From the IMG/VR virus record IMGVR_UViG_3300006033_000031, positions 1 through 59,381 of that record: a stretch of 59,381 bases of DNA. The stretch is one strand, 5' to 3'. Under the pieces are notes generated by a model. The model had not been told where the DNA came from and made no database searches. It saw only the letters and a program-made list of their open reading frames with translations. The position numbers and the translations under genes were made by a program. Shown here one piece after another: positions 10,901 through 42,187 of this stretch (its first letter is position 1; each line of letters opens with the position of its first letter). This stretch comes from a virus.

Positions 10901-11789
10901 TGTGCTGAAGGGACTCGGCACGCCAATCACCACTGCGACCGTCGAGGACAAGCGCACCGCTGTGGTGCATCCGCCCGTCGAGAGCGGCGACTACTCGACG
11001 ATCGACCTGGATCCGATCACACCACAGGTGAAGCGCGGCACGCACATCGACGTCTTCGATGATGCCACGCTGGTGACCTTCACGTTCACTGTCGTCGGCC
11101 TGAATGGCACGACGGTCTACGTCACGCCGACGGTGTCGTCCATCATCAACGGTGCAGCGACCGTCCGTTCTGGAACGGAGATCAAGCGCGAGTACTTCGG
11201 TCTCGCTACGCCTCCGAGCAGCTCGCCGGTCGAATCTCCGCTGACCTTCGCGCAGCCGATCCGTTCTCGTGTGCTGCAACTCGCTGACACCTCGCGGTTC
11301 CCAGCGTCTGGCGAGTGCACCGTGCGGCTGCCGAACGGCGGCAGCACCGAGGTGCGCTACAACCGTGTGGCGCGCGGCTTCCTGCTCGACTGCGAGTGGC
11401 CGTCGACGTTCCCGGCCCTCACAGGCCCGCGCCCGGCGCCCGGCATTGAAGGACCCCTCGATCCACAGCTGCCTGAGGGCACCGTGGTTCGTCTCATCTC
11501 AGAGCACCGGCAGACACGACTCAACCCGGCGTTCATCGCGCTCGTCAATCAGCGCGTCACGCAGGATCTGCGCACGTCCGAGAAGCGCATCCAGGTCAGC
11601 GATGCGAACGCCGATGAACTGTATGCATTCTTCAAGAACTCGTCTGCGGTCATGGAGTCAGCAGCCGTGAGCCGGCCACAGGTACTCCGCGATCTGATGG
11701 ACGATGTCGTCCCGCCCGGCTCGACGCTCGTCACCATGAGCAAGCATCGCATCATCGACGTCTACTCTGGCGGAATCGGAGAGAAGTAA
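7998..11789 (+). CDS. Large baseplate/tail protein following J, 1263 aa
   Basis: It begins 2 nt after the J-like gene. The first 75 residues are helical (TLEQLVWGRLSTFWSRDYNP, then DAEYTRLFEINNSKS), after which the protein is long, beta-rich and acidic, with an Asp/Glu/Gly stretch near residues 445-470. In Mu/P2-type gene order the J gene is followed by gene I, which connects the baseplate to fibres, so an enlarged I-like or wedge role is plausible. No catalytic motif is visible. Its final TAA shares one base with the next ATG (TAATG), which suggests translational coupling. Confidence 0.55.
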   Translation: MAAPRSPIAETLEQLVWGRLSTFWSRDYNPDDKERLNAVYEGCLEALDAEYTRLFEINNSKSIAAINPLTQRRWLRLDLNRHAELAAFLKFLSTSSAGGAASSDASNVLSCDTTENNHARHWHISFPYVVPQGDPVTRASIELRYRIDLRLVRIYHMRRDPRTGIARGVLLRPGADYQLMPSGTGIRLSATVPGDQYELVVGFDLSDPMYDGLQPIVSYAAGYDVAAQNVIRVNPELTIANLPIHVLVVKNVRDSGAGGLVETNTPSFSSKYVFIPWTGLTTGPMHGAVPGTVALPNTVNIESTDAVFVFGLIRGEFVENHKHVLATTLLNPGAAPRITSTLFRAAGSTSRVTFDTPLRPGLFGSLAYLGQPFEVLVDGELLPRSDYQFDADGNLNLKFPLTWTADQYRSVVVRSTDEYDTLHGGAADQHIHIECILQSAKPPEFYETFDDGGDFDDEAGGTFDDKRTLNIVFLDDVGADLSTLEVWVNGVRKLSDIDYVATFDVDTKRVRISFGFNIKDMTIYAAYRRESRTFVYGRYAKGFISQTLSGLLTDIGALKDAFSSSTGFQIKNMGRLIEAAETAGAGGNPLLTLFYDERQEFSDISVDSNRVAISLDDARLVESIGTKLVAIPFLCDRVLRPALRLEQGVDYDIVDGEIRSSFDLTAKRYESDANPGVWWCPIVILDEQMLKKNFGVLVGDERADSSEAYRTALHANLSLRFSGPVVRDLERAAAVLYGSPVFTQDGRITSIDTRTIGYDITVASGTTTQTVRVGSNAVKPVVGERILRSQSLAAAALYDGKLGGLILHKRATVIAELPYVKAAAGDIVRLTTFDPADPTQTPLPFVTRLLSVRYDADYLPARTTLSFENVPRFDVTVESELRILRDAGPPYAALDGIVVSVEAINETVMKTANSEYVLPPGRMPEQRVGEFVARGQPIHQSFAQLYDDTRRPNWHWLKPSHYAKDWEYVLKGLGTPITTATVEDKRTAVVHPPVESGDYSTIDLDPITPQVKRGTHIDVFDDATLVTFTFTVVGLNGTTVYVTPTVSSIINGAATVRSGTEIKREYFGLATPPSSSPVESPLTFAQPIRSRVLQLADTSRFPASGECTVRLPNGGSTEVRYNRVARGFLLDCEWPSTFPALTGPRPAPGIEGPLDPQLPEGTVVRLISEHRQTRLNPAFIALVNQRVTQDLRTSEKRIQVSDANADELYAFFKNSSAVMESAAVSRPQVLRDLMDDVVPPGSTLVTMSKHRIIDVYSGGIGEK

Positions 11790-12115
11790 TGCGAATCGCG
11801 ACAGATGTCATTCGCATCTTCCGCATCATGAACGTCGGCGTTCAGCCTGCGCCTGATGCCAACGGCGACATCTACGTGGACGTCGGGCCCTTCAGCCTGA
11901 CTGCTGTCGTCGATGACCCGGAGAACGCGACGCCACACACCTTCCTGTGGGAACAGACCCCTGTCGTCGTTCCTGGTTCCAGCTTCGGGTCGCCGACGCA
12001 GCAGTCGACCACATTCGGCCCGCTCGTCTCCGGCACCATCTACCACCTGTCAATCACCGTCACCTCAGCGCGCCTCCAGACCAAGAACCTCAGGTTCCGC
12101 GTCCTTGTCCGCTGA
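11789..12115 (+). CDS. Small beta-sandwich virion protein, 108 aa
   Basis: It starts at ATG 11789, overlapping the previous stop by one base. The 108 residues form a PKD/Ig-like pattern: short strands around HTFLWEQTPVVVPGSSFGSP and TTFGPLVSGTIYHLSITVTS, ending in a strand and RVLVR. It is probably a small accessory domain of the baseplate or tail. Its last codons overlap the promoter candidate that starts the fibre/radical-SAM unit, so it likely ends the baseplate transcription unit. There are no catalytic residues. Confidence 0.6.
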   Translation: MRIATDVIRIFRIMNVGVQPAPDANGDIYVDVGPFSLTAVVDDPENATPHTFLWEQTPVVVPGSSFGSPTQQSTTFGPLVSGTIYHLSITVTSARLQTKNLRFRVLVR

Positions 12116-12132
12116 CGCGTAGACCGTACCCT
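12105..12132 (+). promoter_or_regulatory. Promoter TTGTCC-N16-TACCCT for the fibre/radical-SAM unit
   Basis: TTGTCC (12105-12110) and TACCCT (12127-12132) have the same sequence and 16-bp spacing as the promoter candidate at 2574-2601. Transcription would start near 12139, just before a CGGAG ribosome site and GTG 12148. Confidence 0.5.
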
Positions 12133-12147
12133 TCTGTCGGAGTAACC

Positions 12148-12612
12148 GTGCACGACGTCACCCCTCTCGGTTTCCGTGGCCACGTGCGTCAGATCAGCTC
12201 GATTCACGGGCTGATTCGCGACAAGCACAACCTTGTCGTGGACGCCTGTGTCGAGCTGGTCGCCCAGGCACTGCTGGGCCGAGACCAGATCGACGCCGTG
12301 CTCTTCGGCTACAGCGGCGGCGTCATCGCCACGCCTGGGCTCCGCACGATCTACAACCCCATCTACCGCGCGCCGGTGGGTGTGAACTCCGCGTCACCGC
12401 CCTTCATCAGCAAGGATGAGCTGGGCTACAAGTCGATCATCACCTGGACCGGCGTCTACGTGAACCCAGGCCCGAGCAACGTGTCGTACGACATGCTCGG
12501 CCTGCTCTCGCAGAACGATCGCCTGTTCGCGGCCACATCCATCGACACCGTCACGGTGGCGCCCAACGAGAGCATCGCCGTTGAGTGGACCATCGTGACC
12601 CGAGGACGCTAA
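12148..12612 (+). CDS. Small virion protein upstream of the Cys-Thr fibre, 154 aa
   Basis: I choose GTG 12148, which has CGGAG 5 nt upstream and lies directly behind the promoter candidate; the frame is open further upstream only through the previous gene. The 154-residue product begins with a helix (DKHNLVVDACVELVAQALLG), carries a Gly-rich turn and continues as beta sequence ending WTIVTRGR. It resembles phage proteins that sit at the fibre/baseplate junction, but I do not recognise the family. It ends 2 nt before the fibre gene, so the two are co-translated and it could be a fibre adaptor. Confidence 0.55.
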   Translation: MHDVTPLGFRGHVRQISSIHGLIRDKHNLVVDACVELVAQALLGRDQIDAVLFGYSGGVIATPGLRTIYNPIYRAPVGVNSASPPFISKDELGYKSIITWTGVYVNPGPSNVSYDMLGLLSQNDRLFAATSIDTVTVAPNESIAVEWTIVTRGR

Positions 12613-12614
12613 TC

Positions 12615-15524
12615 ATGGCTGACATCATCAAGAATGTTCTGAGCTACGGCGAGCAGCGGCGCACGCTGTTCCTGAACGCGCACAACAAGGACGACTACGG
12701 TCGTCACCGCGCACACGTCCTCTACGGCCTCGATCTGCTGGGGACTGGCCACAAGGTGCAGATCTCGCCCGGAGCGGTCTACACCGCGCAGGGCCAGCGT
12801 CTCTTCTTCGAGGTCACTGATCGCGAGATCGACATCGGCCCCAACGGCATCGACGCGTTCAACACCAGCCGCTTCCCCGACTATCCGATCTGCGTCCTGC
12901 TCTACCTGAACTACCAGTTCCAGGTGCCCCGCGTCGCGTCGCCGATCGACACCGCGACCAGTGGCCCGACCAAGGCCGATCTGCGTGCCCGCATCGTGCC
13001 CTACGACAAGGCAACCTGTGCGCCGGCCTACAACCTGCTGCCGCACGACCCCGTCAACCTCGACGAGCTTCAGCCCAACACCTACCCGCATCTGAGCAAT
13101 GCGCTGAAGCCCAGCATCGACCATCTGCCGTCGCAGAACCCTGCGCTGGAGTCGATTCAGTTCGGTGAGATCCCGCTCGGCTACGTGCTGATCGGTGCTG
13201 ATCCGGTCAGCAATCTGCCGGCAACCAGCCTCGACAGCGCAGGCGTCAGCCTCGTCACCTACAAGAACGTCTTCGACGCAATCAGCGATCTCGTCGGCCA
13301 GGACGTTCTGCTGCCGGTACAGGCGACGCGTGTCGTCGCTGGCCTCGTCCAAGCCTATGGCTCGGCGCTTCAGCAGGGCTACTCGGATCGCCTCGTCGGC
13401 TCTGGCGCTACGTCGCCGCAGCTGCTCAACCCGCAGTTCGGCACGCCCGAGCCCGGCCCATCTGGCACGCGTGAGGACTCGCCGCACACCCTGTACCGTG
13501 AGGCATCGTTCCTGAAGGACGGCGAGCCCGTGCTCGAAGCCATGCGGCGCATGGACGTCGTACTGCGTCAGTGGATGAACCGCACCGGCGCCCAGGATCT
13601 GGTCGCGATCACCAAGGACGGTGCTGGCAACCTCATCCCCGTCGACTCACCGCTCGACGTCATCCTGCGCAAGCTCGATGGCTCGCTCGACGCAGCGGTC
13701 CCTGGCCCGGCCGCCGGCAACGCCAACGCCGTGCTCTACGACAACGGCATCCCTGCTGACGCTGCCAACCCCGACAATCACGTGCTCAAGAGCGGCATCC
13801 TGCCGCATGTCGAGAACACGGTGATGGGCAAGCTCGGCACGGCGGAGGGCGACAGCCACGAGAAGGCCATCGCTGCGCTCGACATCGGGCTCTTCACGGT
13901 GCTCGACAAGATCCTCGGCGAGGTCGTCCCGCGTGATCAGCTCCGCGACGTCTCTGGTGCGCTGTTCACGCCGGTCAACATGGACGAGCGCCCCGAAGGC
14001 CGTCCAGACAGCGCGCTGCCCGTTGTCGGTGGCGGCATGTCGCTGCACTACGTCACCACGCAGAAGTACCGCGCGCTCTTCAACGAGATCTACCGCCGGT
14101 CGCTCAGCGCACCCGGCTCGAACCTCATCGCCAACAACGGCTTCTGGGCCGGCGAGCCGCTGACCGGCACCCCGGCTCCGATGCCGCCGCTGTGGACGCT
14201 GTCGGCCGGTGCCAACTGGAGCCGCGCTCTGGTGAACGTCGGAACTGGCGCGATCAACATCTGGACGGCGACGTTCTCACTCGAAGCTGGCGGCTTCCTG
14301 CGCCAGTCGATCGTCACTGAAGACGTGGTCGGCGAGACCATCCGGTCCTCGCGCTACCTCTCGGCGTCCATCAACATCCAGAACGCCGGAGCCACTGACA
14401 TCGTCGTCGAGGTCATCCTCTACTCGGACGATGCGCAGACTGTTCCGGTCGGTTCGATGGCCATCACGGTGCCCGCTGGCCAGCCCATGCGCCTCTACAC
14501 GGCGACTGGTGAGGTCGCGCCGGCCCTGACCATCCGCAACGTGCGGTTCCAGATCCGCGCGGCCGGGCTGAGCGATCTCTGCACCTTCGTGATCGCTGGC
14601 TGCTCGCTGAACACGGGCATGCCGAACTCGATGCCCGGCATCGACACCAAGCAGACCGACTTCGAGTCGCGCTACGACAACTACCACAACCAGCGGCAGG
14701 GCGACCACTGGATGGGCGGCAAGGCCCTGCGCAATGTGGCTGACCTGCCGGCGACGACCGACACGGCGATGGACGATGTCGCCACCGACGCGCCGCATGG
14801 CGCCGGCACTGGCCTGCGTGCGATGAACGCGAAGGACATCAACAACACGATGATGCGCCGCGACGGAGCCAAGGAAGCGACCGGCGACTGGGGGATGGGC
14901 CAGCACAAGATCGGCAACACGGCGTTCGCTGGTGGTGTCGCGGCGCCAGACGCAGCCGAGCTGACGGATCTGCTGCTCAGCGGCGCTCGCAAGCGCGACT
15001 ACATCAACGCTGGCGACATCAACGAGGCGATGCTGCGCCGCGATGGTGCCAAGCCGACGACCGGGATGATCACGTTCGGCACCGGCAGCGGCGGTCTCGA
15101 TGCTAACGGCGAGGTCATCAAGAACGTCCCGGCTCCGGCCTATCCGTACTCGCCGGAAGCGCTCACTGCTGCGACGCCCTGGAGCTTCGTGAAGTCGAAG
15201 CTCCTGGCGCCGATCAACTTCCAGGCACCGCCGAACGACACGGTCCCGCTGCCCAACCGTGCTGACGGTTCGTCGAACTACCCCGACCATGCGCACCCGA
15301 GCACCTACGTCTATCCTGGCGTCGAGTACAAGGCCGGCGGCAAGATCATCGGGCAGGCGCTCAAGATGATCGACGATGGCGGCAACACGTGGTATGTCCC
15401 TGGTTCGAACGCATCGCCGAACTACTGCAACTGCACCTGCACCTGCACGTGCACCTGCACCTGCACGTGCACCTGCACCTGCACGTGCAACGGTGACTAC
15501 GACTGTGGCTCATGCATGAACTGA
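12615..15524 (+). CDS. Tail fibre with C-terminal CNC(TC)9 cysteine tract, 969 aa
   Basis: ATG 12615 has CGAGGA 8 nt upstream. Residues 1-90 look like a fibre attachment domain (SYGEQRRTLFLNAHNKDDYG). The middle contains helical linkers and a jelly-roll-like region around 495-690. Two fibre repeats with RRDGAK lie near residues 745 and 805, typical of trimeric tail fibres. The tail is extraordinary: from residue 938 it reads C-N-C, then Thr-Cys nine times (941-958), then NGDYDCGSCMN, giving 13 cysteines in the last 32 residues. The three downstream genes with cysteine-dependent radical SAM/SPASM motifs overlap or adjoin it in one unit. I infer that the tract is a substrate for those enzymes and forms the distal fibre tip. 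Alternatives are a disulfide or metal-binding tip. Confidence 0.8.
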   Translation: MADIIKNVLSYGEQRRTLFLNAHNKDDYGRHRAHVLYGLDLLGTGHKVQISPGAVYTAQGQRLFFEVTDREIDIGPNGIDAFNTSRFPDYPICVLLYLNYQFQVPRVASPIDTATSGPTKADLRARIVPYDKATCAPAYNLLPHDPVNLDELQPNTYPHLSNALKPSIDHLPSQNPALESIQFGEIPLGYVLIGADPVSNLPATSLDSAGVSLVTYKNVFDAISDLVGQDVLLPVQATRVVAGLVQAYGSALQQGYSDRLVGSGATSPQLLNPQFGTPEPGPSGTREDSPHTLYREASFLKDGEPVLEAMRRMDVVLRQWMNRTGAQDLVAITKDGAGNLIPVDSPLDVILRKLDGSLDAAVPGPAAGNANAVLYDNGIPADAANPDNHVLKSGILPHVENTVMGKLGTAEGDSHEKAIAALDIGLFTVLDKILGEVVPRDQLRDVSGALFTPVNMDERPEGRPDSALPVVGGGMSLHYVTTQKYRALFNEIYRRSLSAPGSNLIANNGFWAGEPLTGTPAPMPPLWTLSAGANWSRALVNVGTGAINIWTATFSLEAGGFLRQSIVTEDVVGETIRSSRYLSASINIQNAGATDIVVEVILYSDDAQTVPVGSMAITVPAGQPMRLYTATGEVAPALTIRNVRFQIRAAGLSDLCTFVIAGCSLNTGMPNSMPGIDTKQTDFESRYDNYHNQRQGDHWMGGKALRNVADLPATTDTAMDDVATDAPHGAGTGLRAMNAKDINNTMMRRDGAKEATGDWGMGQHKIGNTAFAGGVAAPDAAELTDLLLSGARKRDYINAGDINEAMLRRDGAKPTTGMITFGTGSGGLDANGEVIKNVPAPAYPYSPEALTAATPWSFVKSKLLAPINFQAPPNDTVPLPNRADGSSNYPDHAHPSTYVYPGVEYKAGGKIIGQALKMIDDGGNTWYVPGSNASPNYCNCTCTCTCTCTCTCTCTCTCNGDYDCGSCMN
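15435..15488 (+). repeat. Three perfect 18-bp repeats encoding (Thr-Cys)9
   Basis: The unit ACCTGCACCTGCACGTGC occurs three times in a row without a mismatch. Codon choice is part of the repeat (ACC, ACC, ACG for Thr; always TGC for Cys). A gain or loss of one unit would change the tract by three Thr-Cys pairs without shifting the frame. Confidence 0.95.
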
Positions 15525-16939
15525 TGCGATCCCCAGGCGCGGACCTCGTCTTCTCAGGCGAGGCCCCGTGGGGCTACGATCCGGCGACGCACACCCTGCG
15601 CTCGCCGAAGCATCGTGCCGCCAGACCGAGCCCGCAGCTCCAAGACGCGATCACCCGGTATCTGGCCGGCGTGAAACTGCTTGTCGAGTTGGACATGGCG
15701 ACCAAACCACCGGCCGCCATCACCATCGAGCACGACAAGCGCTGCCAGCTCGGCTGCTCATTCTGCTACGCTGGATCAAACAAGGTCACGACCTCGCCGC
15801 GTCTCGACCCCAAGCGGGTCTGGCAGTTCGTCGAGCGCTACCAGACGCGCGACGTTCATGTGTACGGTGGAGACCCGTTCTTCGACGTCAGCTACATGAC
15901 CGAGCTGCTCGAAGGGATCGCACACCGCGTCGGCGGTATCCGCAAGCTGCACATCTCAACGAATGCGCTTGGACTCCGCCCCGATGTTCTGCTCCAGCTG
16001 CGCTCGATCAGCGAGAAGCTCGACCTCCAGGTGTCGTGCGAGCCTGAGTTCTTCGGTCTTCGGAATACCAAGGGCGGCGTGCACCAGAATGGCCCGCTCG
16101 CTGAACGCATCGCTGCGCTGCCCGTCGACTATGCGCTGAAGTTCTCCACGGTCCTCGCCCCTTCAGCGGGCGTGACGAATCAGACGTTCATCGACGGGCT
16201 CATGGCCTACGACACCTTGGCAGCTGGGCGTCCGTTCAGCATCGTGTGGATGATGGAGACCGAGAACAAGAATGCACAGATGCCGCCGTGGGTCATCCGG
16301 TGGATCGCTGAGAACTGGATGATCCACGCAGAGAATGCGATCCCGACGAAGTTCCAGAATGCAATGCTCGGCAGCGCATACATGCGCTACGTGAAAGGCT
16401 GGTCGAACTCGCAGATCCACGATGCCCTGATGGGCAACCTCATGGGGTGCGGCTCCGGCACTGGAAACTTTGCATTTGCCAGCGATGGCCATGTCTACAC
16501 GTGCCACGAGAAGGCAGCTGCCGGTGTCGAGACGTTCCGCGTCGGTACGAAGAACGCTTGGGAGCGTTGGAAAGCCAGCCGCCAGTTCTTCACGCCCGAC
16601 TACGTGCGTCCTGAGTGCCGCGCGTGCCCAGCAAAGTTCGGCTGTCAGCTCTGCTCTGTGAAAGCCTCGAACACCACGTGTTCGTTTGAGCAGGAGCGCT
16701 TCGCCCTCGGCGTCCATCTCCTGTATCTGCTCGACAACGGCAGCTACATGGCTCTGGCTGACAAGCTGGAGGATCGCTACTACCGGATTCTGGAGCAGCG
16801 CGAGGACATCTACCGCATCGTGCGTTCGCCCTACTGGGATCGACTCTTGTCAAGCACAGAAACTGTTGACGATGTGCAGTGGTGCTATTCGGCGGCGTTC
16901 GGTCGCCCCATGAAACCCCTCCTGGAAGTCACGCTGTGA
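15512..16939 (+). CDS. Radical SAM/SPASM enzyme 1, 475 aa
   Basis: The radical SAM cluster motif CQLGCSFC supplies C78, C82 and C85, followed by a GGDP motif (119-122) and STNALGL. A carboxy-terminal SPASM region is visible: C313, G326-x4-C331, then C369-x2-C372-x5-C378-x2-C381 and C390, enough for auxiliary iron-sulfur clusters. SPASM enzymes include those that make sactionine and other peptide cross-links and formylglycine. Start 15512 overlaps the fibre gene by 13 nt. ATG 15524, sharing one base with the fibre stop (TGATG), is an equally plausible start and neither has a clear ribosome site, so translation is probably coupled to the fibre. I infer that it modifies the fibre's Cys-Thr tail. 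It is not QueE or NrdG, which lack SPASM. Confidence 0.85.
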   Translation: MHELMRSPGADLVFSGEAPWGYDPATHTLRSPKHRAARPSPQLQDAITRYLAGVKLLVELDMATKPPAAITIEHDKRCQLGCSFCYAGSNKVTTSPRLDPKRVWQFVERYQTRDVHVYGGDPFFDVSYMTELLEGIAHRVGGIRKLHISTNALGLRPDVLLQLRSISEKLDLQVSCEPEFFGLRNTKGGVHQNGPLAERIAALPVDYALKFSTVLAPSAGVTNQTFIDGLMAYDTLAAGRPFSIVWMMETENKNAQMPPWVIRWIAENWMIHAENAIPTKFQNAMLGSAYMRYVKGWSNSQIHDALMGNLMGCGSGTGNFAFASDGHVYTCHEKAAAGVETFRVGTKNAWERWKASRQFFTPDYVRPECRACPAKFGCQLCSVKASNTTCSFEQERFALGVHLLYLLDNGSYMALADKLEDRYYRILEQREDIYRIVRSPYWDRLLSSTETVDDVQWCYSAAFGRPMKPLLEVTL

Positions 16940-18396
16940 AGCCACTCATCACGGACGAATACCCAGTAGAGTTCGGCCGCTTCCGCGACATCTTCGACCC
17001 TGAGGTGTACGACACTGACTTCAACCTGTACAAGGATAGCTGCGATCCACAGCTCATGGCCATCATGGGCAACTTCACCGAACAGGACAAGAAGGACTAC
17101 TACAACTTCTTCCTGCTGCTGCGCGCCGCGCATGCAGGGATCGCGGCAACCGTTCGGCGCCCGCAGAAGCTCGTGATTCACGGCTTCAAGGAATGCCACC
17201 TCAAGTGCAGCTACTGCATCGTGGAGGCGAACCAGCCGGGCGCGTCGACTGAGCATCTGAACCTCGACGTCATCAAGCAGCTGCGTGACACCTACGCGAT
17301 CAACTCTGTGCACTTCGTCGGCGGCGAACCGACGTATGACTGGGATCAGCTGTATCGGTGCCTCGACATCCTGGGGCCGATGCTCAATGTTTCGCTGACG
17401 ACCAACGGTCTCGGACTCACGCAGCGACACCTCGACGAGATGGATCGTCGGTGCCAGGACGTCTCATACCACGTGTCCGTCGAGCCCCAGTCGTGGGGAC
17501 AGCGGATGTTCACAGATGGAGTGACGCATCAGAACGTCGCGCTCAAGCGCGTGTTCGAGAAGCTGAACCCCGAACAGGTGTTCCGCTCGAAGACGAGCTG
17601 CCTCAACGTAGTTCTGCCGATGGATTTCAAGTCGGCATCGGGCATCGAAACGAAAATGGATGTCGATGCCATCGTCGACGAACTCTCGGACGTCGTGAAC
17701 TACCGTGACTGGATGGGGATCTGGCATGTCGAGTTCGCGATGGAAGGCAACAAGACGCGTCCGCTCGACGACTGGATCTATCGACTGCTCGTCGACGAAT
17801 CTGCGAAGGCCGCATCTGGCACGATGACGAAGCAGCGCTTCCTCAATGGCCCCATTGGTGAGATGGCGTACCGGATGATCAACGTCAACAACACGAACAA
17901 GTACCCTGGCAAGTTCTTCTCGTGCGCCGTCGGCGGTTCGTCCATTCACGTGTCGTTCAACGGGAAGCTCTACGGCTGCTCGGTCGAAGCAGGACGCGGT
18001 GAAGGTGAGCGCCCCATCGACCCGCTCACCTACGGCCCGGCTGACAAGTGGGCGAGCCTCTGCGATGTCATGCCTGCGCTCACATACGACGCGTGCCGCG
18101 CATGTCCTGCCAAGTTCTTCTGCGGGAAGACATGCGGCAAGCTCAACGTCGCTGGTTGCGAGTACAACCGAATCCGCGCTGAACTGCTTCCGCGCGTTCT
18201 CAAGCGTTTCCACCCGGAGGAATACGAGGCTGTTCGTCGTGCGCAGGAGCGCTACATTTACGCCTACACCCAGCATCGCGATCTGATCCGACACGTTCTG
18301 GCTGATCCGTGGACGCAGCAGTTCATCCACGGCCAGACAAACGATCTGGAAAAGGTTCGCGAAGCGTCTGATGCCCTTGGAGTCTTGCTGTCATGA
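16936..18396 (+). CDS. Radical SAM/SPASM enzyme 2, 486 aa
   Basis: I start at GTG 16936, which overlaps the previous stop (GTGA) and has GGAAG 7 nt upstream. The cluster motif CHLKCSYC gives C87, C91 and C94; GGEP is at 129-132 and TTNGLGL follows. The SPASM cysteines fit the consensus very well: C330, G-x4-C348, C387-x2-C390-x5-C396-x3-C400 and C408. An EPQSWG motif at 183-188 matches EPESWG in enzyme 3 and EPEFFG in enzyme 1, so the three are paralogous. No separate RRE-like leader-binding domain is obvious in the first 86 residues. It should act on a peptide or protein cysteine through a 5'-deoxyadenosyl radical in the host cytoplasm before virion assembly. Confidence 0.87.
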   Translation: MKPLITDEYPVEFGRFRDIFDPEVYDTDFNLYKDSCDPQLMAIMGNFTEQDKKDYYNFFLLLRAAHAGIAATVRRPQKLVIHGFKECHLKCSYCIVEANQPGASTEHLNLDVIKQLRDTYAINSVHFVGGEPTYDWDQLYRCLDILGPMLNVSLTTNGLGLTQRHLDEMDRRCQDVSYHVSVEPQSWGQRMFTDGVTHQNVALKRVFEKLNPEQVFRSKTSCLNVVLPMDFKSASGIETKMDVDAIVDELSDVVNYRDWMGIWHVEFAMEGNKTRPLDDWIYRLLVDESAKAASGTMTKQRFLNGPIGEMAYRMINVNNTNKYPGKFFSCAVGGSSIHVSFNGKLYGCSVEAGRGEGERPIDPLTYGPADKWASLCDVMPALTYDACRACPAKFFCGKTCGKLNVAGCEYNRIRAELLPRVLKRFHPEEYEAVRRAQERYIYAYTQHRDLIRHVLADPWTQQFIHGQTNDLEKVREASDALGVLLS

Positions 18397-19127
18397 ACAC
18401 CCTCTTCGACTACGCCAAACTCTATGCAGAGACGCCACCGCACGACCCGCTGGACGAGATGCCGTATCTGTCTCGGGTTCTTGCCGGCAACCCGATCAGC
18501 TTCTTCGAGTGCCTGAAGCTCGGAGACAAGTCGCTGATCCTGAAGTGCATGGCGAACATCCGCCTGTACTACGGCATCAAGCACTACAACACGGCGCTGG
18601 CCATCATCCGCAAGGGTGACGACTGCCAGGAGCTGGCCGACTTCAAAGCCGAGTTCGAAGCGGCTCCGCTGCACCCGCAGCGCCTCATCCTGCTCGATTC
18701 GTACATGGCCACCGAAGACGAGGTCAGCGACTACGACGGTGCCGAGGAAGCGTTCGACCTGAGCACTGACCTGCTCGACTCCAAGAACTTCCACCGCGCT
18801 GGCAACGACATCATCTTCCTCACCACGCCTGTCGCCTCGTTCTCCTACATGGTCGCTGCCTCGACGGCGCTGCCTGTGTTCGAGCAGGCACCTGAACTGA
18901 CGCACAGCATCAGCGTCTTCAATGCCTCGACGGCCACGCGCGACAGCTTCCTGGCGCTCATGAAGCTCATGCGCCGCGAGTGGAAGAACGTCGAGAACCG
19001 CAATCGCTTCGTCTACATCACGCAGAAGACGCTCCTGCACCTTCGTCGTGTCCTCAACGACAACAACCCGGCGTACTCGAAGCTGTTCGACAAGCGCATT
19101 GCAACCCTCGCGGAACTGGACTCATGA
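18393..19127 (+). CDS. Unknown protein inside the radical SAM unit, 244 aa
   Basis: The ATG overlaps the stop of enzyme 2 (ATGA), and its own stop overlaps the start of enzyme 3, so expression is locked to the enzymes. It is a soluble protein with acidic helices (SYMATEDEVSDYDGAEEAFD), a hydrophobic strand (NDIIFLTTPVASFSYMV) and a basic helical carboxy half. Only a few scattered cysteines occur and there is no SAM motif. I do not recognise a family. Its conserved position suggests an accessory role, such as binding the fibre tail and presenting it to the enzymes, but nothing in the sequence proves this. Confidence 0.7.
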   Translation: MNTLFDYAKLYAETPPHDPLDEMPYLSRVLAGNPISFFECLKLGDKSLILKCMANIRLYYGIKHYNTALAIIRKGDDCQELADFKAEFEAAPLHPQRLILLDSYMATEDEVSDYDGAEEAFDLSTDLLDSKNFHRAGNDIIFLTTPVASFSYMVAASTALPVFEQAPELTHSISVFNASTATRDSFLALMKLMRREWKNVENRNRFVYITQKTLLHLRRVLNDNNPAYSKLFDKRIATLAELDS

Positions 19128-20605
19128 TCAAACCAGAGCACCGACGCCACGGAGTAATGAACAAGCCGGTCCTCGGCGGCCCCGACAAGGGCTTCAGCTA
19201 CTACGCTGCCTCGCATCAGTACGTGCTCGGTGATGCCAAGCCGATCGAGTTCTCACGCGCTGAGGAATACCTGCTCTGGCGCTATTTCCTCGGCATGCGC
19301 GTCGTCCACATGTTCGAGCGCATCTGCGCGAAGCCCGTGTCGCTGATGGCAGACCCGCTGCGTGGCTGCCAGCTCCAGTGCAGCTACTGCTATTCCGAGG
19401 TGTGGAACGACGACGGCGTTCGTGTATCACCTGAACGCTTCGCTGAACTCCAGCGGCTGTTCGGATTCCCGTCGCTGTCGATGTACGGCGGCGATCCGTT
19501 CTACGACTGGAAGTACACGAAGTCGTGCATCGAGGCCATCAACGCAGTGAAGCCTCTCGATGAACTGCTGATCTCCACGAACGGAATCGGTGTCACGACC
19601 GACAAGGTTGCGTGGCTGAAGCTGCACGTTCCGAAGATCCAGTTCCAGCTGTCGACGGAGCCAGAGAGCTGGGGCGCTCGCAAGAGTGCGAACGGAAAGC
19701 ACCAGCGCGAGATCCTCGGTGACCGGCTCCACGACGTCAGCAAGCTGCTGCCGATTCAGATCGCGCTGGCGATCCCGCGCACGGGCCTCTCCAAGTGGGA
19801 GACGCTCGACGAGACCATCGACTACTTCCAGCGTGTCGTTGGCCCGACCGACAACTGGTCGCTGAACTGGAAGCTGGAAGAGAACGACGAGCCGGAGCCG
19901 ACGTACTCGAAGGCGTCGCTGCCACCGTGGTACGCCGAGTGGCTCCAGGACGAATGGTACGCTGCGATGGAGAAGGACGGCAGCTACACCAAGTCGCGCA
20001 TGCGGAAGGGGCTCGTCAACATGCGCATGTCGTCGATCCTGCGCATGATCGAGAAAGATCAGGCCCCAGTCGACTACTACAACTGCGCTGCTGGCTTCGG
20101 TGGACTTGGTATCGGCCCGACCGGCGAGCTGAGCAGCTGCCATCACCGTGCTGCTGTCGGTGACACCAACTACCGCTTCGACACGGTGACGGCACGTGGT
20201 CTGTGGGAGAAGATGGCGCGCGAAACGCAGCACATGAACAACAGCGTGTGCGCCACGTGCTGCTCGAAATACACGTGCGGGGGCATCTGCTACACCTCGT
20301 TGAACAACAGCACGTGCGAAGCCTTCCGCGCCAACCTGGAACTCGCGCTGTTCGTTCTCGCTAACCATCTGCCTGACAAGGCTCAGCGCGTTTCTGACGT
20401 GACGCGCGCTGCTGCTGAGAAGAGCAAGAAGCTCGTCGCGCAGATGCGTCAGCTGCTGGAGTCCGAGCACTGGGACAACCTCATCCGTGCCAAGCTGAGC
20501 GCTGACGAGATGGGCGACCTGATCGCGCAGTTCCGTGGCTTCATGCCGAAGCTCGATGTACCGATCTGGGAGCTGCCAGCACCGGGCAGTCCCCAGAGTT
20601 TGTAG
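19124..20605 (+). CDS. Radical SAM/SPASM enzyme 3, 493 aa
   Basis: ATG 19124 overlaps the previous stop by 4 nt (ATGA), which sets the start. The cluster motif CQLQCSYC gives C82, C86 and C89; GGDP is at 122-125, STNGIGV near 151 and EPESWG at 179-184. The SPASM region has C321, G334-x4-C339, then C376-x2-C379 (with C380 adjacent), C385, x3, C389 and C398. It ends with a helical region of about 90 residues, rich in charged residues, that resembles the carboxy-terminal helices of enzymes 1 and 2. It is the last gene of the unit; the next promoter candidate begins 4 nt after its stop. It probably acts with enzymes 1 and 2 on the same or neighbouring residues of the fibre tail. Confidence 0.87.
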   Translation: MIKPEHRRHGVMNKPVLGGPDKGFSYYAASHQYVLGDAKPIEFSRAEEYLLWRYFLGMRVVHMFERICAKPVSLMADPLRGCQLQCSYCYSEVWNDDGVRVSPERFAELQRLFGFPSLSMYGGDPFYDWKYTKSCIEAINAVKPLDELLISTNGIGVTTDKVAWLKLHVPKIQFQLSTEPESWGARKSANGKHQREILGDRLHDVSKLLPIQIALAIPRTGLSKWETLDETIDYFQRVVGPTDNWSLNWKLEENDEPEPTYSKASLPPWYAEWLQDEWYAAMEKDGSYTKSRMRKGLVNMRMSSILRMIEKDQAPVDYYNCAAGFGGLGIGPTGELSSCHHRAAVGDTNYRFDTVTARGLWEKMARETQHMNNSVCATCCSKYTCGGICYTSLNNSTCEAFRANLELALFVLANHLPDKAQRVSDVTRAAAEKSKKLVAQMRQLLESEHWDNLIRAKLSADEMGDLIAQFRGFMPKLDVPIWELPAPGSPQSL

Positions 20606-20608
20606 CCG

Positions 20609-20636
20609 TTGCAGGGAACCTCAATCAGCCTAGACT
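20609..20636 (+). promoter_or_regulatory. Promoter TTGCAG-N16-TAGACT
   Basis: TTGCAG (20609-20614) and TAGACT (20631-20636) have the same 16-bp spacing as the other candidates. The start would be near 20643, followed by a TGAGG ribosome site and ATG 20658. It separates the radical-SAM unit from the head-related block. Confidence 0.5.
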
Positions 20637-20657
20637 GAATCCCCACATGAGGTTCCC
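20614..20657 (+). promoter_or_regulatory. Dyad GGGAACCTCA/TGAGGTTCCC flanking the -10 box
   Basis: Perfect 10-bp arms at 20614-20623 and 20648-20657 enclose the -10 box and predicted start site. The left arm overlaps the end of the -35 box and the spacer; the right arm contains the ribosome site up to the ATG. Because the left arm lies upstream of the transcript, an RNA hairpin cannot form. A DNA operator for a dimeric protein fits better. Confidence 0.5.
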
Positions 20658-21977
20658 ATGCTGACCTGCTTCCCCGACGTCGCCCTGAAGACTGCTGCCA
20701 GCGTGCGCCCGACCAACGGTGCCCGGATCGCAGTCCCGCATCCGGCGCTCGCCAATCAGGCTCCAACGCACCCGTCGCAGATCCCTGGCACCGCTGCCCA
20801 TGCGACCTCGACCGGCGGAGCGGGCCCTGCGGCTCCGACCGCCGGCCTCGGTGCAGCTCGCGCGCCGGGTCAGACCTTCGGTGGCCGCATGGGCGCCTGG
20901 GGCAACCGCCTCGGCAGCATCCGTGGCATGGCCGGGCTCGGTGCAGCGGTCGGCGCAGCCAAGGGCCTGATCGCCCCTGGCGTCGAGTACGACGAGCAGG
21001 GCCGCCCGCACCGCAAGAGCCGCATCGGCGCAGCCCTCAGCGGCGCCGGCACTGGCGCGCTGGTCGGTGGTGGCGTCGGCGTGCTCGGCAAGGCAACCGG
21101 CGCCGGCAAGGCGCTCGGCAACTGGGGCGCCAAGGTCGACGCAGGCACCGCAAACGCTCCCGACTGGATGCACAGCGTCCACGAGGGTGCTGGCGGCGGC
21201 CAGAGCCAGTTCCGCGCTGATGATCTGGCGACCCGCCCGGCCAAGGCCGCGATGGCACCGAATCAGGTCAACATCCCGGCCTCGACCCAGAACGTCTACC
21301 ACGTCACCCAGAAGAATGGCGTGGGCTTCAAGTTCACCGTGCACGGCCACGATCCGCGCACTGGTGACATTCACGGGCTCTACCATGCGCCCGATGGTTC
21401 GAAGCAGCAGACCAGCTTCAACGCGGCGCACGTCGCGTCGATGAAGCCCCTCAACATCTCCATGCCGCAGGACACCAGCCCCATGCAGACCGCCACGATC
21501 TCTCGTCCGCAGCCCAAGGCCGCCGCGCTGCGCCTCGTCCGCGATGACATCTACCTCGTCGCCGCCACCAACGGCGAGGGCTTCATCGGCACCTACAAGG
21601 GCGCGAGCGCTGACGATCGCGCTGTGTTCCTGCTCCACGCACCCGGTGTGCAGTCCGTCGAAGCTGCCTTCGACATGCGCAAGCTGGCCCACATCTCGCC
21701 GGTGATCAACACCAAGACCGGCAGCGTGGCCCGCAGCCGCGACGAGCTGCCCTTCACCCATGAGGGCCAGAAGCTCGCCGAAGCCTACGCCTTCAAGATC
21801 GCGAAGCGCACCGCACCGGCCTCGTTCGCCGAGCACCAGTTCAAGAAGAAGGACACCGGCATGGCTGCGCCGGAGCCCGCCGCCTCGGCCAGCTCGCCGG
21901 CTGACACTGCCGTCGTGGAGCCCAAGCCGAGCGGCACCCCGCTGCCCGAGCTGCGCGCCAAGTCGAAGAAGAAGTGA
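20658..21977 (+). CDS. Gly/Ala-rich virion-associated protein, 439 aa
   Basis: ATG 20658 follows a TGAGG site; an out-of-frame ATG lies at 20647. Residues 70-155 are Gly/Ala-rich with GXXXG-like stretches (GMAGLGAAVGAAKGLIAPG, GAALSGAGTGALVGGGVGVL) that could form two glycine-zipper helices able to insert in membranes. The middle is beta-like, and the end (residues 405-439) is a disordered Pro/Ala/Ser segment closing with a Lys cluster. Glycine-zipper regions occur in ejected internal or pilot proteins, so a role in DNA delivery is possible. I do not recognise the family. It opens the head-related block. Confidence 0.6.
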   Translation: MLTCFPDVALKTAASVRPTNGARIAVPHPALANQAPTHPSQIPGTAAHATSTGGAGPAAPTAGLGAARAPGQTFGGRMGAWGNRLGSIRGMAGLGAAVGAAKGLIAPGVEYDEQGRPHRKSRIGAALSGAGTGALVGGGVGVLGKATGAGKALGNWGAKVDAGTANAPDWMHSVHEGAGGGQSQFRADDLATRPAKAAMAPNQVNIPASTQNVYHVTQKNGVGFKFTVHGHDPRTGDIHGLYHAPDGSKQQTSFNAAHVASMKPLNISMPQDTSPMQTATISRPQPKAAALRLVRDDIYLVAATNGEGFIGTYKGASADDRAVFLLHAPGVQSVEAAFDMRKLAHISPVINTKTGSVARSRDELPFTHEGQKLAEAYAFKIAKRTAPASFAEHQFKKKDTGMAAPEPAASASSPADTAVVEPKPSGTPLPELRAKSKKK

Positions 21978-23214: not shown

Positions 23215-23649
23215 ATGCCCGATCCCTACATCTACATCGTCCGCTCGTTCGAAGTGCACGACGCCGACACGCTCAAGGCCGAGCTGGACCTCGGCTTCGA
23301 TCTCCGATTCAACACCAATGTGCGCATCAACGGCATCGACGCGCCTGAGCAGAGCACAGACGCCGGCAAGCAGGTCACGCTGATCGTGGCCACGGCCCTC
23401 AAGAAGATCGTCTCGCAGAAGCTCGCGCTCCTGGTCGTCAGCCACGACTGGGACAAGTACGGTGGTCGCATCGTCGGCGACCTCGTCTTCGGCGCAGAAC
23501 GTACGTCGCTTGCGAGCCGCCTGCTGGCCCTGAAGCTGGCACTGCCGTTCACTGGCAAGGTGAAGAAGTCGCCGTGGTCAGCTTCAGCCCTGAAGTTCAT
23601 CGCGACTGCTGACGTCAACCGCTATGCTTCGGAGATCGTCGCCGGATGA
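23215..23649 (+). CDS. Staphylococcal nuclease-like (thermonuclease) protein, 144 aa
   Basis: I use ATG 23215, which has GAGG upstream, rather than the longer frame that overlaps the previous gene. The whole protein is one SNase fold. Aligned by eye to S. aureus nuclease, D16-A-D18-T19 corresponds to DGDT (D21), R37 to R35, D42-A-P-E45 to D40-T-P-E43, and R85 in DKYGGR to R87. All catalytic and calcium-binding residues therefore appear present, and it should cleave DNA or RNA. There is no signal peptide. It overlaps the Nudix gene by 4 nt and sits in the head block, so it may act on host nucleic acid or during packaging. Confidence 0.8.
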   Translation: MPDPYIYIVRSFEVHDADTLKAELDLGFDLRFNTNVRINGIDAPEQSTDAGKQVTLIVATALKKIVSQKLALLVVSHDWDKYGGRIVGDLVFGAERTSLASRLLALKLALPFTGKVKKSPWSASALKFIATADVNRYASEIVAG

Positions 23650-25400
23650 AGATGCGCGTCCGTTCTGAAGTCCTTGCGTTCAGGAAGAACCGCGTCCTGG
23701 CCGATCTCACCGGCTCCTGGGTCGTCTTCCCTGGCGGCGGCGTCGACAAGGGTGAGAACCCGCGCGAGGCCGCGAAGCGCGAGTTCAAGGAAGAGGCTGG
23801 CCGCGACGTCATCAACGTCGACGTCGCCTCGCACCCGACGCTCCAGACGTGGCCCAAGGACTACGCGGCCAAGGCCACGTGGTCGAGGGGTTACACCGGC
23901 GGCTGCACCTACTGGTTCACCGGCAGCACGAGCGAAGAGGTGACCGACGGCAGCCACAAGGACTTCCAGGGCGGCTTCGACTGGCACCCGATCAAGGACG
24001 TCATCGAGAAGCTCAAAGGCGAGCTGGCCGGTGACTGGACGAACGACGTCAAGGCTCGAATCGACATCCTCAAGACCCATCTCGAAGCTGGCCAGAAGAT
24101 CGCAGAGCTGGTCGGGCCGTCTGCCCCTCTGCTGGCATCAGTTCCACTGGCCACTACGATCTCTCCCCAGGTGACACCCATGCTCAAAATGGCCTGCCGT
24201 ATCCTCGACGTGTACGACGACTCCGAGCTGGAAGTCGCATCAAAACTCGCCGCTGCTGGTCTCGGCAATGTGGCCGTGGCCGATCGCGAGGCGATCGAGC
24301 AGCTGGAGGATCGCCAGTTCGGCCTCGTGCTGAAGACGGCCTCCGGTGTCCTGCGCCGCCGCTACCCGCTGCACGACGCCGACAGCACCAAGCTCTCGGC
24401 TGCCTACTTCCGTGAGGTGAAGGACACCCTGCCAGCTGAGGTCGCTGAGCTGGTCTACACCAAGATCGCGGCGGCCGAGCGCTACTTCGACGTCGGCGGT
24501 GAGTGCATCGCTCCTGAGCAGGTCGATGCCGTGATGAGCCTCGTCAACTACGTCGACTCCGCCAAGATCGCCCAGCCGCGTCAGAAGGTCGCGCATGCTG
24601 AGCAGCACTGGGGCCTGTCGATCGACGGGAAGAACTACTTCCCGCTGCACGACGCCACGCTGGTGAAGGTCGCCGTGGCGCGCTTCACCGAGACCGCCAG
24701 CAGCCTGGAGCCCGAAGAGCGCTTCGCCTACGCCCGTACCATCGAGAAGCGCGCGAGCGCCCTCGGCGTCGAGATCCCCAACGACTCGATGGTCAACTGG
24801 TACACCGCCGACGGCCTGAACCTCAGCTCGCTGGCCGAGGCCCTGACCGAGCGCAAGCGCGTGATGAAGGCCGCGAGCGCTTCGACCGAGGTGCTCGATC
24901 AGCTGTTCGAGGCCGCTGGCTGCGCCATCGTTCGCGGCGACATCGAGAGCGACGCCAGCTTCGCGCACCGCGAGTCGAAGCAGGCCAGCATGCGCCGCGC
25001 CTCGATCGACCCGGCCAAGATCATCAGCACCCTCCAGACGATCGACAAGTTCGCTGGCTTCGGCAGCTTCCACTACATGCGCGGCCTGCTCGATCCGTTC
25101 GCTGCCTGCTTCAAGCGCGACGACATCAGCAAGAAGGCTGCGATGATCGTCGATGGCATCGACCTCTCGACCCTCTCTCCCGAGCAGCTCTCGGCCAAGT
25201 TCGGCCCCGAGTTCGTGCAGGAGTTCCAGCAGAACCCGCAGCAGGTCTACAGCTCGCTGCCGTCGCCGATGAAGTCGATCATCCGGCAGTTCTGCAACCA
25301 GGGTGGCAAGGAGCAGTCGGGCGAACCGACGCCGGTCGGCGACCCCTCGCAGGGTCTCGGAGCCACCTATGCCAACGCTGGCGGATTCGTCGGTTCCTGA
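23646..25400 (+). CDS. Nudix hydrolase domain fused to a duplicated phage structural domain, 584 aa
   Basis: The amino-terminal domain carries a perfect Nudix box: G31-x5-E37-x7-R45-E46-x2-E49-E50-x-G52, the magnesium site of nucleoside-diphosphate-X hydrolases. After about residue 178 the protein changes character to a helical region with two copies of a unit starting R/N-Y-F-PLHD (240-244 and 332-336), a motif style seen in phage head-assembly proteins, and a Gln/Pro-rich end. A second ribosome site (AGGTGA) precedes an in-frame ATG at 24180, so a 406-residue product without the Nudix domain may also be made. It lies one gene upstream of the portal. The natural Nudix substrate cannot be told. 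Confidence 0.75.
   Translation: MKMRVRSEVLAFRKNRVLADLTGSWVVFPGGGVDKGENPREAAKREFKEEAGRDVINVDVASHPTLQTWPKDYAAKATWSRGYTGGCTYWFTGSTSEEVTDGSHKDFQGGFDWHPIKDVIEKLKGELAGDWTNDVKARIDILKTHLEAGQKIAELVGPSAPLLASVPLATTISPQVTPMLKMACRILDVYDDSELEVASKLAAAGLGNVAVADREAIEQLEDRQFGLVLKTASGVLRRRYPLHDADSTKLSAAYFREVKDTLPAEVAELVYTKIAAAERYFDVGGECIAPEQVDAVMSLVNYVDSAKIAQPRQKVAHAEQHWGLSIDGKNYFPLHDATLVKVAVARFTETASSLEPEERFAYARTIEKRASALGVEIPNDSMVNWYTADGLNLSSLAEALTERKRVMKAASASTEVLDQLFEAAGCAIVRGDIESDASFAHRESKQASMRRASIDPAKIISTLQTIDKFAGFGSFHYMRGLLDPFAACFKRDDISKKAAMIVDGIDLSTLSPEQLSAKFGPEFVQEFQQNPQQVYSSLPSPMKSIIRQFCNQGGKEQSGEPTPVGDPSQGLGATYANAGGFVGS
24169..24182 (+). promoter_or_regulatory. Internal ribosome site and ATG inside the Nudix fusion
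   Basis: AGGTGA (24169-24174) lies 5 nt before an in-frame ATG (24180-24182), at codon 179, exactly at the join between the Nudix and structural parts. It would yield a 406-residue carboxy-terminal protein. Confidence 0.45.
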
Positions 25401-37490: not shown

Positions 37491-38147
37491 ATGCCGCGCT
37501 TCTACATCTCTGACGGTCATGCCCCCGGACTGCGCTGCCCGAACGGCGAGTACGCCACGCGCTCTGGTCGCACGTCCGACGTCCTCAACGAAGCGCAGGC
37601 TATCATGCGTGGGCGAAAGCTCACCCCTACCGAGGCGCCTGTCGTCGTCTTGAGCCGCCTCGGACCGATCCTCACCGCCACCGACTTCACGAAGGTCGAC
37701 AGCGACAACGACCGCGATGGCGCCTGGACGGTGTTCAGCGACGCACCATACGCAGACGCGGGGAACGGTGCCAACCATACCGGCAACTACTGGTATCCCA
37801 ACGTGCTCGTCGGCATCGGTGCTCCGACGCAGATCTGGGTCGATCTCGGCGCGCAGCACAGCATCCACTACTACGACGCCTCCGCGAACGCGATTCAGTG
37901 GTATCTCGAAGGCAGCAATACTGGAATGACCGGCCCGTGGACGATGATCGACAACCAGCACCCGCTCCAGCCTGGGGTTCTCAACTTCCGCGTCGACATC
38001 TTCGGCGGTGCGCGCCGCCGTACGCTGCCCGCGCCCAGCGCGCCGTACCGCTACATCCGTTTCAGCGTCACCACGGTTGGCCAGTACGACGGGGTTCAGC
38101 CGGCGTGGGGCCTGTCGATGGCGCGCATGCACCTTTACGGAGTCTGA
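37491..38147 (+). CDS. Adhesin 1: shared peg module plus discoidin-like domain, 218 aa
   Basis: The first of six consecutive genes that start with the same short module, here MPRFYISDGHAPGLR then DVLNEAQAIMRGRKLTPT. After residue 50 comes a single discoidin (F5/8 type C)-like domain: IWVDLGAQHSIHYYD, then WYLEGSNTGMTGPWTMID, and YRYIRFSVTTV near the end, followed by MARMHLYG. That fold binds sugars or surfaces. The shared amino end is probably the attachment peg to a common fibre or baseplate. GGAG lies 7 nt upstream of the ATG. There are no catalytic residues. Confidence 0.7.
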   Translation: MPRFYISDGHAPGLRCPNGEYATRSGRTSDVLNEAQAIMRGRKLTPTEAPVVVLSRLGPILTATDFTKVDSDNDRDGAWTVFSDAPYADAGNGANHTGNYWYPNVLVGIGAPTQIWVDLGAQHSIHYYDASANAIQWYLEGSNTGMTGPWTMIDNQHPLQPGVLNFRVDIFGGARRRTLPAPSAPYRYIRFSVTTVGQYDGVQPAWGLSMARMHLYGV

Positions 38148-38151
38148 TGCC

Positions 38152-39285
38152 ATGTCTCGCTTCTACATCTCCGATGGTGCGCGTCCTGGACGCCGGTCCC
38201 CGGTGCTGGACTATGCTACGCGTGTCAACGGAGTCGGCTCGGACATCCTCAACGAAGCCCAGGCCATCGCCCGTGGTCGCAAGCTGACCCCGACGATGGG
38301 GTCGCTGGCACCGATGCGGATCGAGCACGATCCCGGCGTCACGTATCGAAGCAGCGGCAACTACAACGGCGACTACGACCTCGTGAACGGCCGCCCGGCG
38401 GAAGAGGGGTCCTACCCGGCCACGCTCGCGTTCGACGACATCCAGGGGCCGGTGGACGCCAACAACTGGCTGTCTGCCCGCGTTGGCCAGAGCGTTCCGC
38501 ATTGGATCGGTGTGGACTTCGGCGTCGCGCGTTCGGTGACCGGCTACGTCCTCAAGACGCGTACCGACAGCTATGCAAACCTCGTCCCACCGCGCAAGTG
38601 GATCGTGCAGGGGAGCAACGACGGGTGGGCGGGCACGTGGACGGACATCGACACCCGCACCTCGTCGTCCTACGACTGGGCCGCGAACGGGTCCGTCTAC
38701 TCGAATCTCAACGCGTTGAGTGGATCGTACCGCTACCTGCGCTTCTACTTCCCGGCCAACGCTGCGAGTGGCGGCTTCGACTGCATCAGCATGTCGGAGA
38801 TCGAGGTATGGGGCGTCCCGCTCACAGCGGCGCCGCCGAGCTATAGCTGGTACCGCTTCACATTCTCGGGAACGCCGAAGGCGCAGTTCGGCTACATCCC
38901 TGGGCAGAGTGGTATCGGCGCCCACGGCTCTCAGAACGGCGGCGGTTCCAACCTCTTCGACACCGGGTTCATGTCAGACGCGTTCGGTGCGGGATGGACG
39001 AACGTTCCCGCCGGCCTGTTCCGCGATACCCACGGCGCGCTTGCCCCATACAGCTACACGCCCTCGTGGATCAGCGTGCGGCTCACCGCGCCGGTGTCCG
39101 CGCGCTCGTTCCACATGGTCGAGTACACGGCCGAGGGTGGAGTCTGGCGGTACACGCCGGGCGCAGTCCTCATCGAAGGGTCACTGGACGGTTCTGCCTG
39201 GAGTACGATCAAGAACGCCAACGGCGCTGACTTCGTGCTCGCTGGGACGACCAGCAACAGCTCTCGCTACTACATCAACGTCTGA
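38152..39285 (+). CDS. Adhesin 2: shared peg plus discoidin-like and second beta domain, 377 aa
   Basis: I start at ATG 38152, where the shared peg MSRFYISDGARPGRRSP then DILNEAQAIARGRKLTPT begins. A discoidin-like domain spans about 60-225 (WIGVDFGVARSVTGYVLK, then WIVQGSNDGWAGTWTDID, then YRYLRFYFPANAASG, ending EIEVWG). A second beta domain of about 150 residues follows (RFTFSGTPKAQFGYIPGQSG ... VEYTAEGGVWRYTPGAVLIE), also reading as carbohydrate-binding-like. Binding domains differ between neighbours while the peg is nearly identical, which implies recombination between adhesin tips. Confidence 0.7.
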   Translation: MSRFYISDGARPGRRSPVLDYATRVNGVGSDILNEAQAIARGRKLTPTMGSLAPMRIEHDPGVTYRSSGNYNGDYDLVNGRPAEEGSYPATLAFDDIQGPVDANNWLSARVGQSVPHWIGVDFGVARSVTGYVLKTRTDSYANLVPPRKWIVQGSNDGWAGTWTDIDTRTSSSYDWAANGSVYSNLNALSGSYRYLRFYFPANAASGGFDCISMSEIEVWGVPLTAAPPSYSWYRFTFSGTPKAQFGYIPGQSGIGAHGSQNGGGSNLFDTGFMSDAFGAGWTNVPAGLFRDTHGALAPYSYTPSWISVRLTAPVSARSFHMVEYTAEGGVWRYTPGAVLIEGSLDGSAWSTIKNANGADFVLAGTTSNSSRYYINV

Positions 39286-39292
39286 GGTACCT

Positions 39293-40336: not shown

Positions 40337-40338
40337 GC

Positions 40339-41124: not shown

Positions 41125-41133
41125 GGTATCTAA

Positions 41134-42180: not shown

Positions 42181-42187
42181 GGTCTCT

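Follow-up and report, generated by a model that had tools for sequence, protein, structure and literature searches.

A phage fibre-like protein with a cysteine-threonine tail encoded beside three radical SAM/SPASM enzymes: evidence for a probable virion-maturation cassette

The stretch of viral DNA analysed here, an IMG/VR virus record of 59,381 bases referred to below as the window, encodes a large fibre-like protein that ends in a ladder of alternating cysteines and threonines, and the genes that follow it encode radical SAM enzymes. The question raised by this arrangement is whether the enzymes act on the ladder and, if they do, what kind of tip they would make. The proposed substrate, a tail-fibre protein of 969 aa, occupies an open reading frame at 12615-15524 on the plus strand. 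Its C-terminus reads ...YVPGSNASPNYCNC(TC)9NGDYDCGSCMN, the closing residues being ASPNYCNC(TC)9NGDYDCGSCMN with exactly nine TC pairs, so that the ending in CNC, nine Thr-Cys pairs and CGSCMN described in a previous sequence-only reading was confirmed. The segment CNC(TC)9NGDYDCGSCMN, the proposed modification site, lies at 15426-15521 on the same strand. Cysteines are strongly concentrated there, as 13 of the 17 in the protein fall within the last 32 residues and only four in the preceding 937.

The fibre itself matches nothing in Pfam, NCBIfam or PHROG. Its C-terminal part resembles a 551-aa fibre-like protein of a 363-kb phage (G001), and its putative structural role is based on this similarity and on the cognate proteins described below, without a domain match. 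Ahead of the cysteine tail lies a "neck" of 42 residues (residues 896-937, 15300-15425, plus strand), which in local alignments against shuffled sequences gave z values of 7.6 between the window and G001 and of 5.9 between G001 and a second phage, G002. Among the loci compared, the neck matched nothing beyond Cys-tailed proteins; a role as an enzyme-recognition or capping element may be considered, and the evidence is suggestive only. Directly 5' of the fibre, a small protein of 154 aa (12148-12612, plus strand) matches phrog_5417, a family of unknown function, at 3.6e-4. Elsewhere in the window, a 584-aa protein (23646-25400) is a fusion of a NUDIX-like stretch at the N-terminus (PHROG, about 1e-6) and a long part of unknown kind, and the region 38008-44389 holds a series of large proteins matching F5/8 type C, laminin-G-like, BNR-like and Hoc-like/tail-protein families, which are probably further virion adhesion or decoration proteins.

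Four genes lie 3' of the fibre on the plus strand without gaps, each overlapping the preceding one by 4-13 nt. They encode radical SAM/SPASM enzyme 1 (475 aa, 15512-16939, alternative start 15524), enzyme 2 (486 aa, 16936-18396, with a GTG start in a GTGA overlap), an unknown 244-aa protein (18393-19127, ATGA overlap) and enzyme 3 (493 aa, 19124-20605, ATGA overlap). The three enzymes scored 33.6, 41.1 and 35.3 bits respectively against PF04055, all above the gathering threshold of 29.5 bits. Each contains CxxxCxxC, GG[DE]P and a SPASM-type set, CX9-15GX4C / CX2CX5CX2-3C / C; this set had been called near-complete and was found complete in all three, enzyme 1 having CX2 where the seven-cysteine pattern (CX9-15GX4C...CX2CX5CX3C...C) has CX3. 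Domain scores, cysteine motifs and a mutual identity of about 23% (E 1e-25 to 1e-36) thus bear out the description of three paralogous but distinct genes after the fibre, and the overlapping arrangement, including the unknown protein, was likewise verified. The 244-aa protein matched no family in Pfam, NCBIfam or PHROG, and its single-sequence fold was unreliable (pLDDT 38.8). Promoter candidates had been placed before the unit (12105) and after it (20609); a sigma-70 consensus scan of 11700-21000 returned no promoter-like site, so that the proposal of a single transcript loses this support and co-transcription is inferred from the gene overlaps only.

Neither the window enzymes nor the fibre had close relatives in INPHARED or IMG/VR when these were searched with tblastn and peptide patterns; enzyme 2 had one weak match on a gut scaffold. 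A profile built from the window enzymes and one cognate placed CteB (5WGG) first among solved structures (1.2e-18), and the predicted structure of enzyme 3 (pLDDT 62, pTM 0.67) also returned CteB 5WGG as the top PDB fold match (1.6e-8), followed by anSME, SuiB and SkfB, with the epimerase EpeE among the further matches. The model shows a hairpin and a helix before the barrel and no evident RRE-like domain, at the modest confidence given by its pLDDT. Among NCBIfam models, enzyme 1 best matched the SCIFF maturase TIGR03974 (1.2e-8), far below cut-off. The highest equivalog scores of the window enzymes were 34.3 of 425 bits (TIGR03974) and 32.5 of 340 bits (NF047865), and the SPASM model TIGR04085 (cut-off 27 bits) was just missed, with 26.0, 23.4 and 19.3 bits; the enzymes were therefore not assigned to any named maturase family. 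CteB and Tte1186 link Cys to Thr, and the CteA link has been reported at the gamma carbon (PMC8172795). Separately, the BFVD matches included four or more radical SAM proteins of comparable fold from Myoviridae sp. ctkfK18.

These resemblances bear on the possibility that the enzymes are antiviral (viperin-like) or nucleotide enzymes placed beside the fibre by chance. Weak matches to pVip do exist, the best at 2.5e-8, but they span only about 90-110 core residues, none is full-length, and the SPASM-type cysteines are extra to them. The fold match to peptide maturases and a tail-enzyme association far beyond chance, described below, also count against such a defence reading, which was rejected as highly improbable.

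The DNA of the window tail contains three perfect 18-bp repeats, and the ladder might be nothing more than a functionless repeat expansion. To judge by public contigs this is a common outcome, since most contigs matching the DNA pattern carry plain repeats read in the wrong frame or strand, and the window alone would not decide between function and repeat expansion. IMG/VR was scanned with three tail patterns and then with two more, and GTDB species genomes were scanned once. Real C-terminal tails proved to belong to few families, nearly all beside radical SAM genes, and more generic patterns added only wrong-frame repeats to the tails already known. Altogether, Cx(TC)n-tailed proteins were recovered on five different protein scaffolds, Omnitrophota prophages with a lambda gpJ-like tail tip being among the sources. 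Radical SAM genes were present in 17 of the 18 tailed records, the contig of the 18th stopping 5 bp past the tail, and two to four of them adjoined the tail gene in the cassettes examined. Co-occurrence of SPASM enzymes and Cys-Thr tails in other phages, set beforehand as a check on the interpretation, was thus passed strongly.

When only loci fetched by the DNA pattern were considered, a radical SAM ORF was found at 14 of the 16 that combine a real tail with downstream sequence, compared with 2 of the 325 that lack a tail (Fisher p ~6e-21). This p-value overstates the evidence, because related contigs were counted separately, so that some loci depend on one another; independence holds at the level of the scaffold, and each scaffold is represented in few records. 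One of the two tailed loci lacking a radical SAM ORF (L135) is truncated, its full record holding five radical SAM genes, and the other (L190) is a repeat-rich ORF. Conversely, of the two loci counted as having radical SAM without a tail, L058 does carry one, on an ORF that is cut. Only L267 is genuinely exceptional: it has a radical SAM ORF (11302-12345) and a CTCTC pattern in the wrong frame, but no real cysteine tail. A further locus with a doubtful tail (L207) was set aside. Across the whole genomes of the seven tailed records tested, alternating-Cys stretches occurred at a single place, beside the enzyme cluster, and none occurred in seven phage records having radical SAM genes but no cassette. 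A Cys tail was also absent from Campylobacter phages and gut-phage scaffolds in which radical SAM matches had been found.

The five scaffolds differ in the body of the tailed protein and in the enzymes beside it. The window, with its 969-aa protein, three SPASM enzymes and one orphan, represents the first. In the second, that of the 363-kb phage G001, the 551-aa fibre-like protein ends in CGCTCTCTCTCTCNCAHSKCAKWG and is followed by four radical SAM-type genes. The third (G007) has an 814-aa collar fibre (PF12571, 3.1e-45) ending in CGCTCTCTCTCNCNHGKCAK and four enzyme genes, orthologous and in the same order as those of G001 (31-40% identity), while the fibre bodies differ. The fourth (G002, G004 and G005) has an 854-aa protein with a weak PF12571 match, ending in CGCTCTCTCQCTAPCNCCKGAGPV, and four genes, one of which encodes a MiaB/RimO-like enzyme (TIGR00089, 2.5e-43). 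The fifth (G006, G009, G018, G019 and relatives) has a small tail protein (187-207 aa), and its cassettes combine one B12-type enzyme with one SPASM enzyme that is PapB-like or related. Within it, the clade of G009, G018 and G019 encodes a tail protein of 187-191 aa and two enzymes, and G006 a tail protein of 207 aa and four enzymes, two of them of twitch type in addition to the common pair. PapB-like enzymes were detected in five cassettes (2e-36, 5e-38, 3e-59, 5e-50 and 6e-49); the cognate enzyme P0007 reached 200.9 of 340 bits, below the equivalog cut-off. The B12-type enzymes matched TIGR04479/TIGR04072. In the G006 cassette (L160:10999-12497), the tail gene is separated from the enzymes by genes for an aldo/keto reductase (PF00248, 6.9e-28) and for a short DegT-like protein. 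The G009 tail gene is located downstream of a lambda gpJ-like tip protein (PF24801 1.6e-20, PF13550 9.4e-16), that is, in a tail-tip module.

Outside the window, the Cys-Thr tail peptide of unrelated phages is written in mixed codons, with radical SAM genes beside it. In the scaffold 5 clade, the tail gene and the two enzyme genes have dN/dS values of about 0.02-0.07, at a dS that is saturated or nearly so, and the tail varies from six to eight TC pairs between nearly fixed flanks. Purifying selection on substrate and enzymes is strong in this one clade. Mixed codons, the tail-enzyme contingency and dN/dS together led us to reject a DNA repeat artefact, the window repeats notwithstanding, and we give it practically no weight.

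The structural bodies also bear on whether the C-terminus might be cleaved and released as a modified peptide, acting as a toxin or a signal, with the rest of the protein only a carrier. A Cys-rich C-terminus on a larger N-terminal part does recall RiPP logic. However, the window operon holds only the enzymes and one orphan gene, without a recognisable protease or exporter, and the criteria for a RiPP cluster (a short precursor with a leader, a protease or exporter) are not met by a 969-aa substrate. The bodies are of structural type, up to 969 aa, and the cognates include a PF12571 fibre or lie in a gpJ tail-tip module. We consider a released peptide very unlikely.

One genome allows two related cassettes to be compared. 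The chromosome of Ca. Velamenicoccus archaeovorus (Omnitrophota), NZ_CP019384, which is G018 above, contains two related prophage regions; a search of the phylum Omnitrophota for the small scaffold 5 substrate found it in this genome alone. The first region (L345, about 1,895,000-1,914,500) carries a (TC)8 tail, on a protein of 191 aa, and two enzymes. At the corresponding gene position the second (L346, about 1,850,000-1,868,000) has a different Cys-rich protein, of 245 aa, with three enzymes, an arrangement that looks like a joint swap of substrate and enzymes. An Lcl_C-domain protein (~1e-25), possibly another tip or adhesion protein, is encoded shortly downstream of the enzymes in both regions and in a third locus (L345:12144-12704, L346:6916-7464, L163:6647-7231). 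The sequence-only reading had held that homologous enzyme sets consistently found without a Cys-Thr fibre would refute it. L346 is one such set; since its enzymes adjoin a Cys-rich protein at the same gene position, this case fits modification rather than refutation.

The alternating pattern admits another structural explanation, according to which the ladder is left without modification and forms a needle at the trimer end, locked by disulfides or binding metal, and the enzymes act elsewhere. T4 gp37, with its HxH iron needle, offers a comparison; alternating cysteines would, by inference, occupy one face of a beta-strand, and HxH motifs occur ahead of the tail in one clade. Such a needle leaves unexplained why the tail travels together with two to four peptide-maturase-like enzymes across unrelated scaffolds and why substrate and enzyme set appear to be swapped jointly, and we regard it as unlikely. 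That the cysteine tail is the substrate of the enzymes is instead, in our judgement, highly likely, although this is inferred in the absence of biochemical or mass-spectrometric data, and the earlier interpretation that the fibre is modified is supported.

The nature of the modification is less certain. In the window, thioethers are the preferred candidate, since all its radical SAM enzymes are of the SPASM type and the closest relative of known structure joins Cys to Thr. Without any demonstrated activity, specific Cys-Thr thioether chemistry of the window tail remains an inference, and for mainly thioether chemistry we judge the case evenly balanced. The tail might instead be epimerised, C-methylated or methylthiolated, or have its Cys oxidised to an aldehyde, through a series of steps like that of proteusins, a proposal that agrees with the preferred one insofar as the tail is modified. 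It draws on the B12-type and MiaB/RimO-like enzymes of other cassettes, on the aldo/keto reductase and DegT-like protein of G006 and on the matches of the window enzyme model to anSME and EpeE folds. As the window encodes SPASM-type enzymes only, and as these match the thioether enzyme CteB best in both sequence and fold, we hold a mainly non-thioether chemistry to be a real but somewhat weaker possibility. The presence of B12-type or MiaB/RimO-like enzymes in other cassettes indicates that the chemistry varies, and methylation or methylthiolation would probably be added there.

Taken together, these data make it probable that the cassette is a phage virion-maturation system whose enzymes modify the tail before virion assembly. 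According to this model, the fibre would be synthesised with its C-terminal ladder, and the radical SAM/SPASM enzymes of the same translationally coupled operon would act on it, probably on the fresh, nascent or monomeric chain before trimer assembly. The most likely change would be the formation of thioether cross-links from Cys to neighbours such as Thr, within or between chains. The C-termini of fibres are usually distal, and the modified product would consequently form the tip that contacts the host. This end would be rigid and resistant to redox change and proteases, or chemically altered in another way, and might serve to cap the fibre covalently, as a rigid needle, or as a surface that is reactive or binds a receptor. 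A role of the tip in host contact or stability is inferred, and phages with such cassettes probably remodel the chemistry of their own host-contacting tip. Whether this amounts to a modular system across unrelated tailed phages and prophages, in which two to four radical SAM enzymes of different types (SPASM, B12-type, methylthiotransferase-like) form exchangeable sets, are swapped together with the tail and give various fibre or tail-tip proteins Cys-rich tips that bear several modifications, is a proposal that we find as easy to defend as to doubt.

Should the tail indeed be the substrate of the enzymes, phages would be maturing a host-contacting structural protein by RiPP-type radical chemistry, and both host recognition and virion stability would gain a further layer. 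A role would then be provided for at least some phage radical SAM genes, often listed as "auxiliary metabolic genes", and the cassettes would represent natural enzyme sets for Cys-Thr ladder cross-linking on large proteins. The sequence-only reading knew of no described system of this kind, and none was found in the open PMC full text, preprints and most subscription journals being outside the search. We consider the proposed phage fibre-tip maturation system new as a system, its enzyme chemistry being expected to fall within known radical SAM chemistry.

Among phages, the closest precedents concern the genes alone. Pelagimyophages vary in the radical SAM cassettes of their host-recognition clusters (PMC7029224), and 12 radical SAM genes are present in a T4-like marine genome (PMC5332604), so that such genes are near host-recognition genes or numerous there too; the passages on them mention neither a substrate nor a Cys tail or a role. 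Campylobacter phages CP220 and CC_R7 also encode radical SAM proteins but, in the regions read, as a solitary gene without a neighbouring paralogue, and their genomes lack an alternating-Cys stretch. Outside phages, anSME and QhpD are SPASM enzymes that modify whole proteins, and anSME is a strong fold match; their targets, however, are enzymes modified at one or few sites, whereas in the window several enzymes face a repeat tail on a virion protein. The PapA/PapB (freyrasin) system is related through the PapB-like enzymes of several cassettes (up to 3e-59), and PapB forms in-line and nested links with flexible spacing (PMC9413430). Its acceptors are Asp/Glu, whereas the phage tails have mostly Thr and some Glu/Asp/Asn/Gly, and the cassette enzyme stays below the cut-off at the score given above. 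SCIFF/thermocellin (CteA/CteB, Tte1186) differs in its short precursor, as opposed to a 969-aa fibre-like virion protein, and in its single enzyme, as opposed to three phage-encoded ones without a clear RRE and far below the equivalog cut-off. It shares with the window the combination of radical SAM and SPASM domains and a substrate with a Cys-rich C-terminus, in its case carrying Cys-Thr thioethers (PMC8172795), and CteB is the best PDB match of the window enzymes by both sequence profile and fold.
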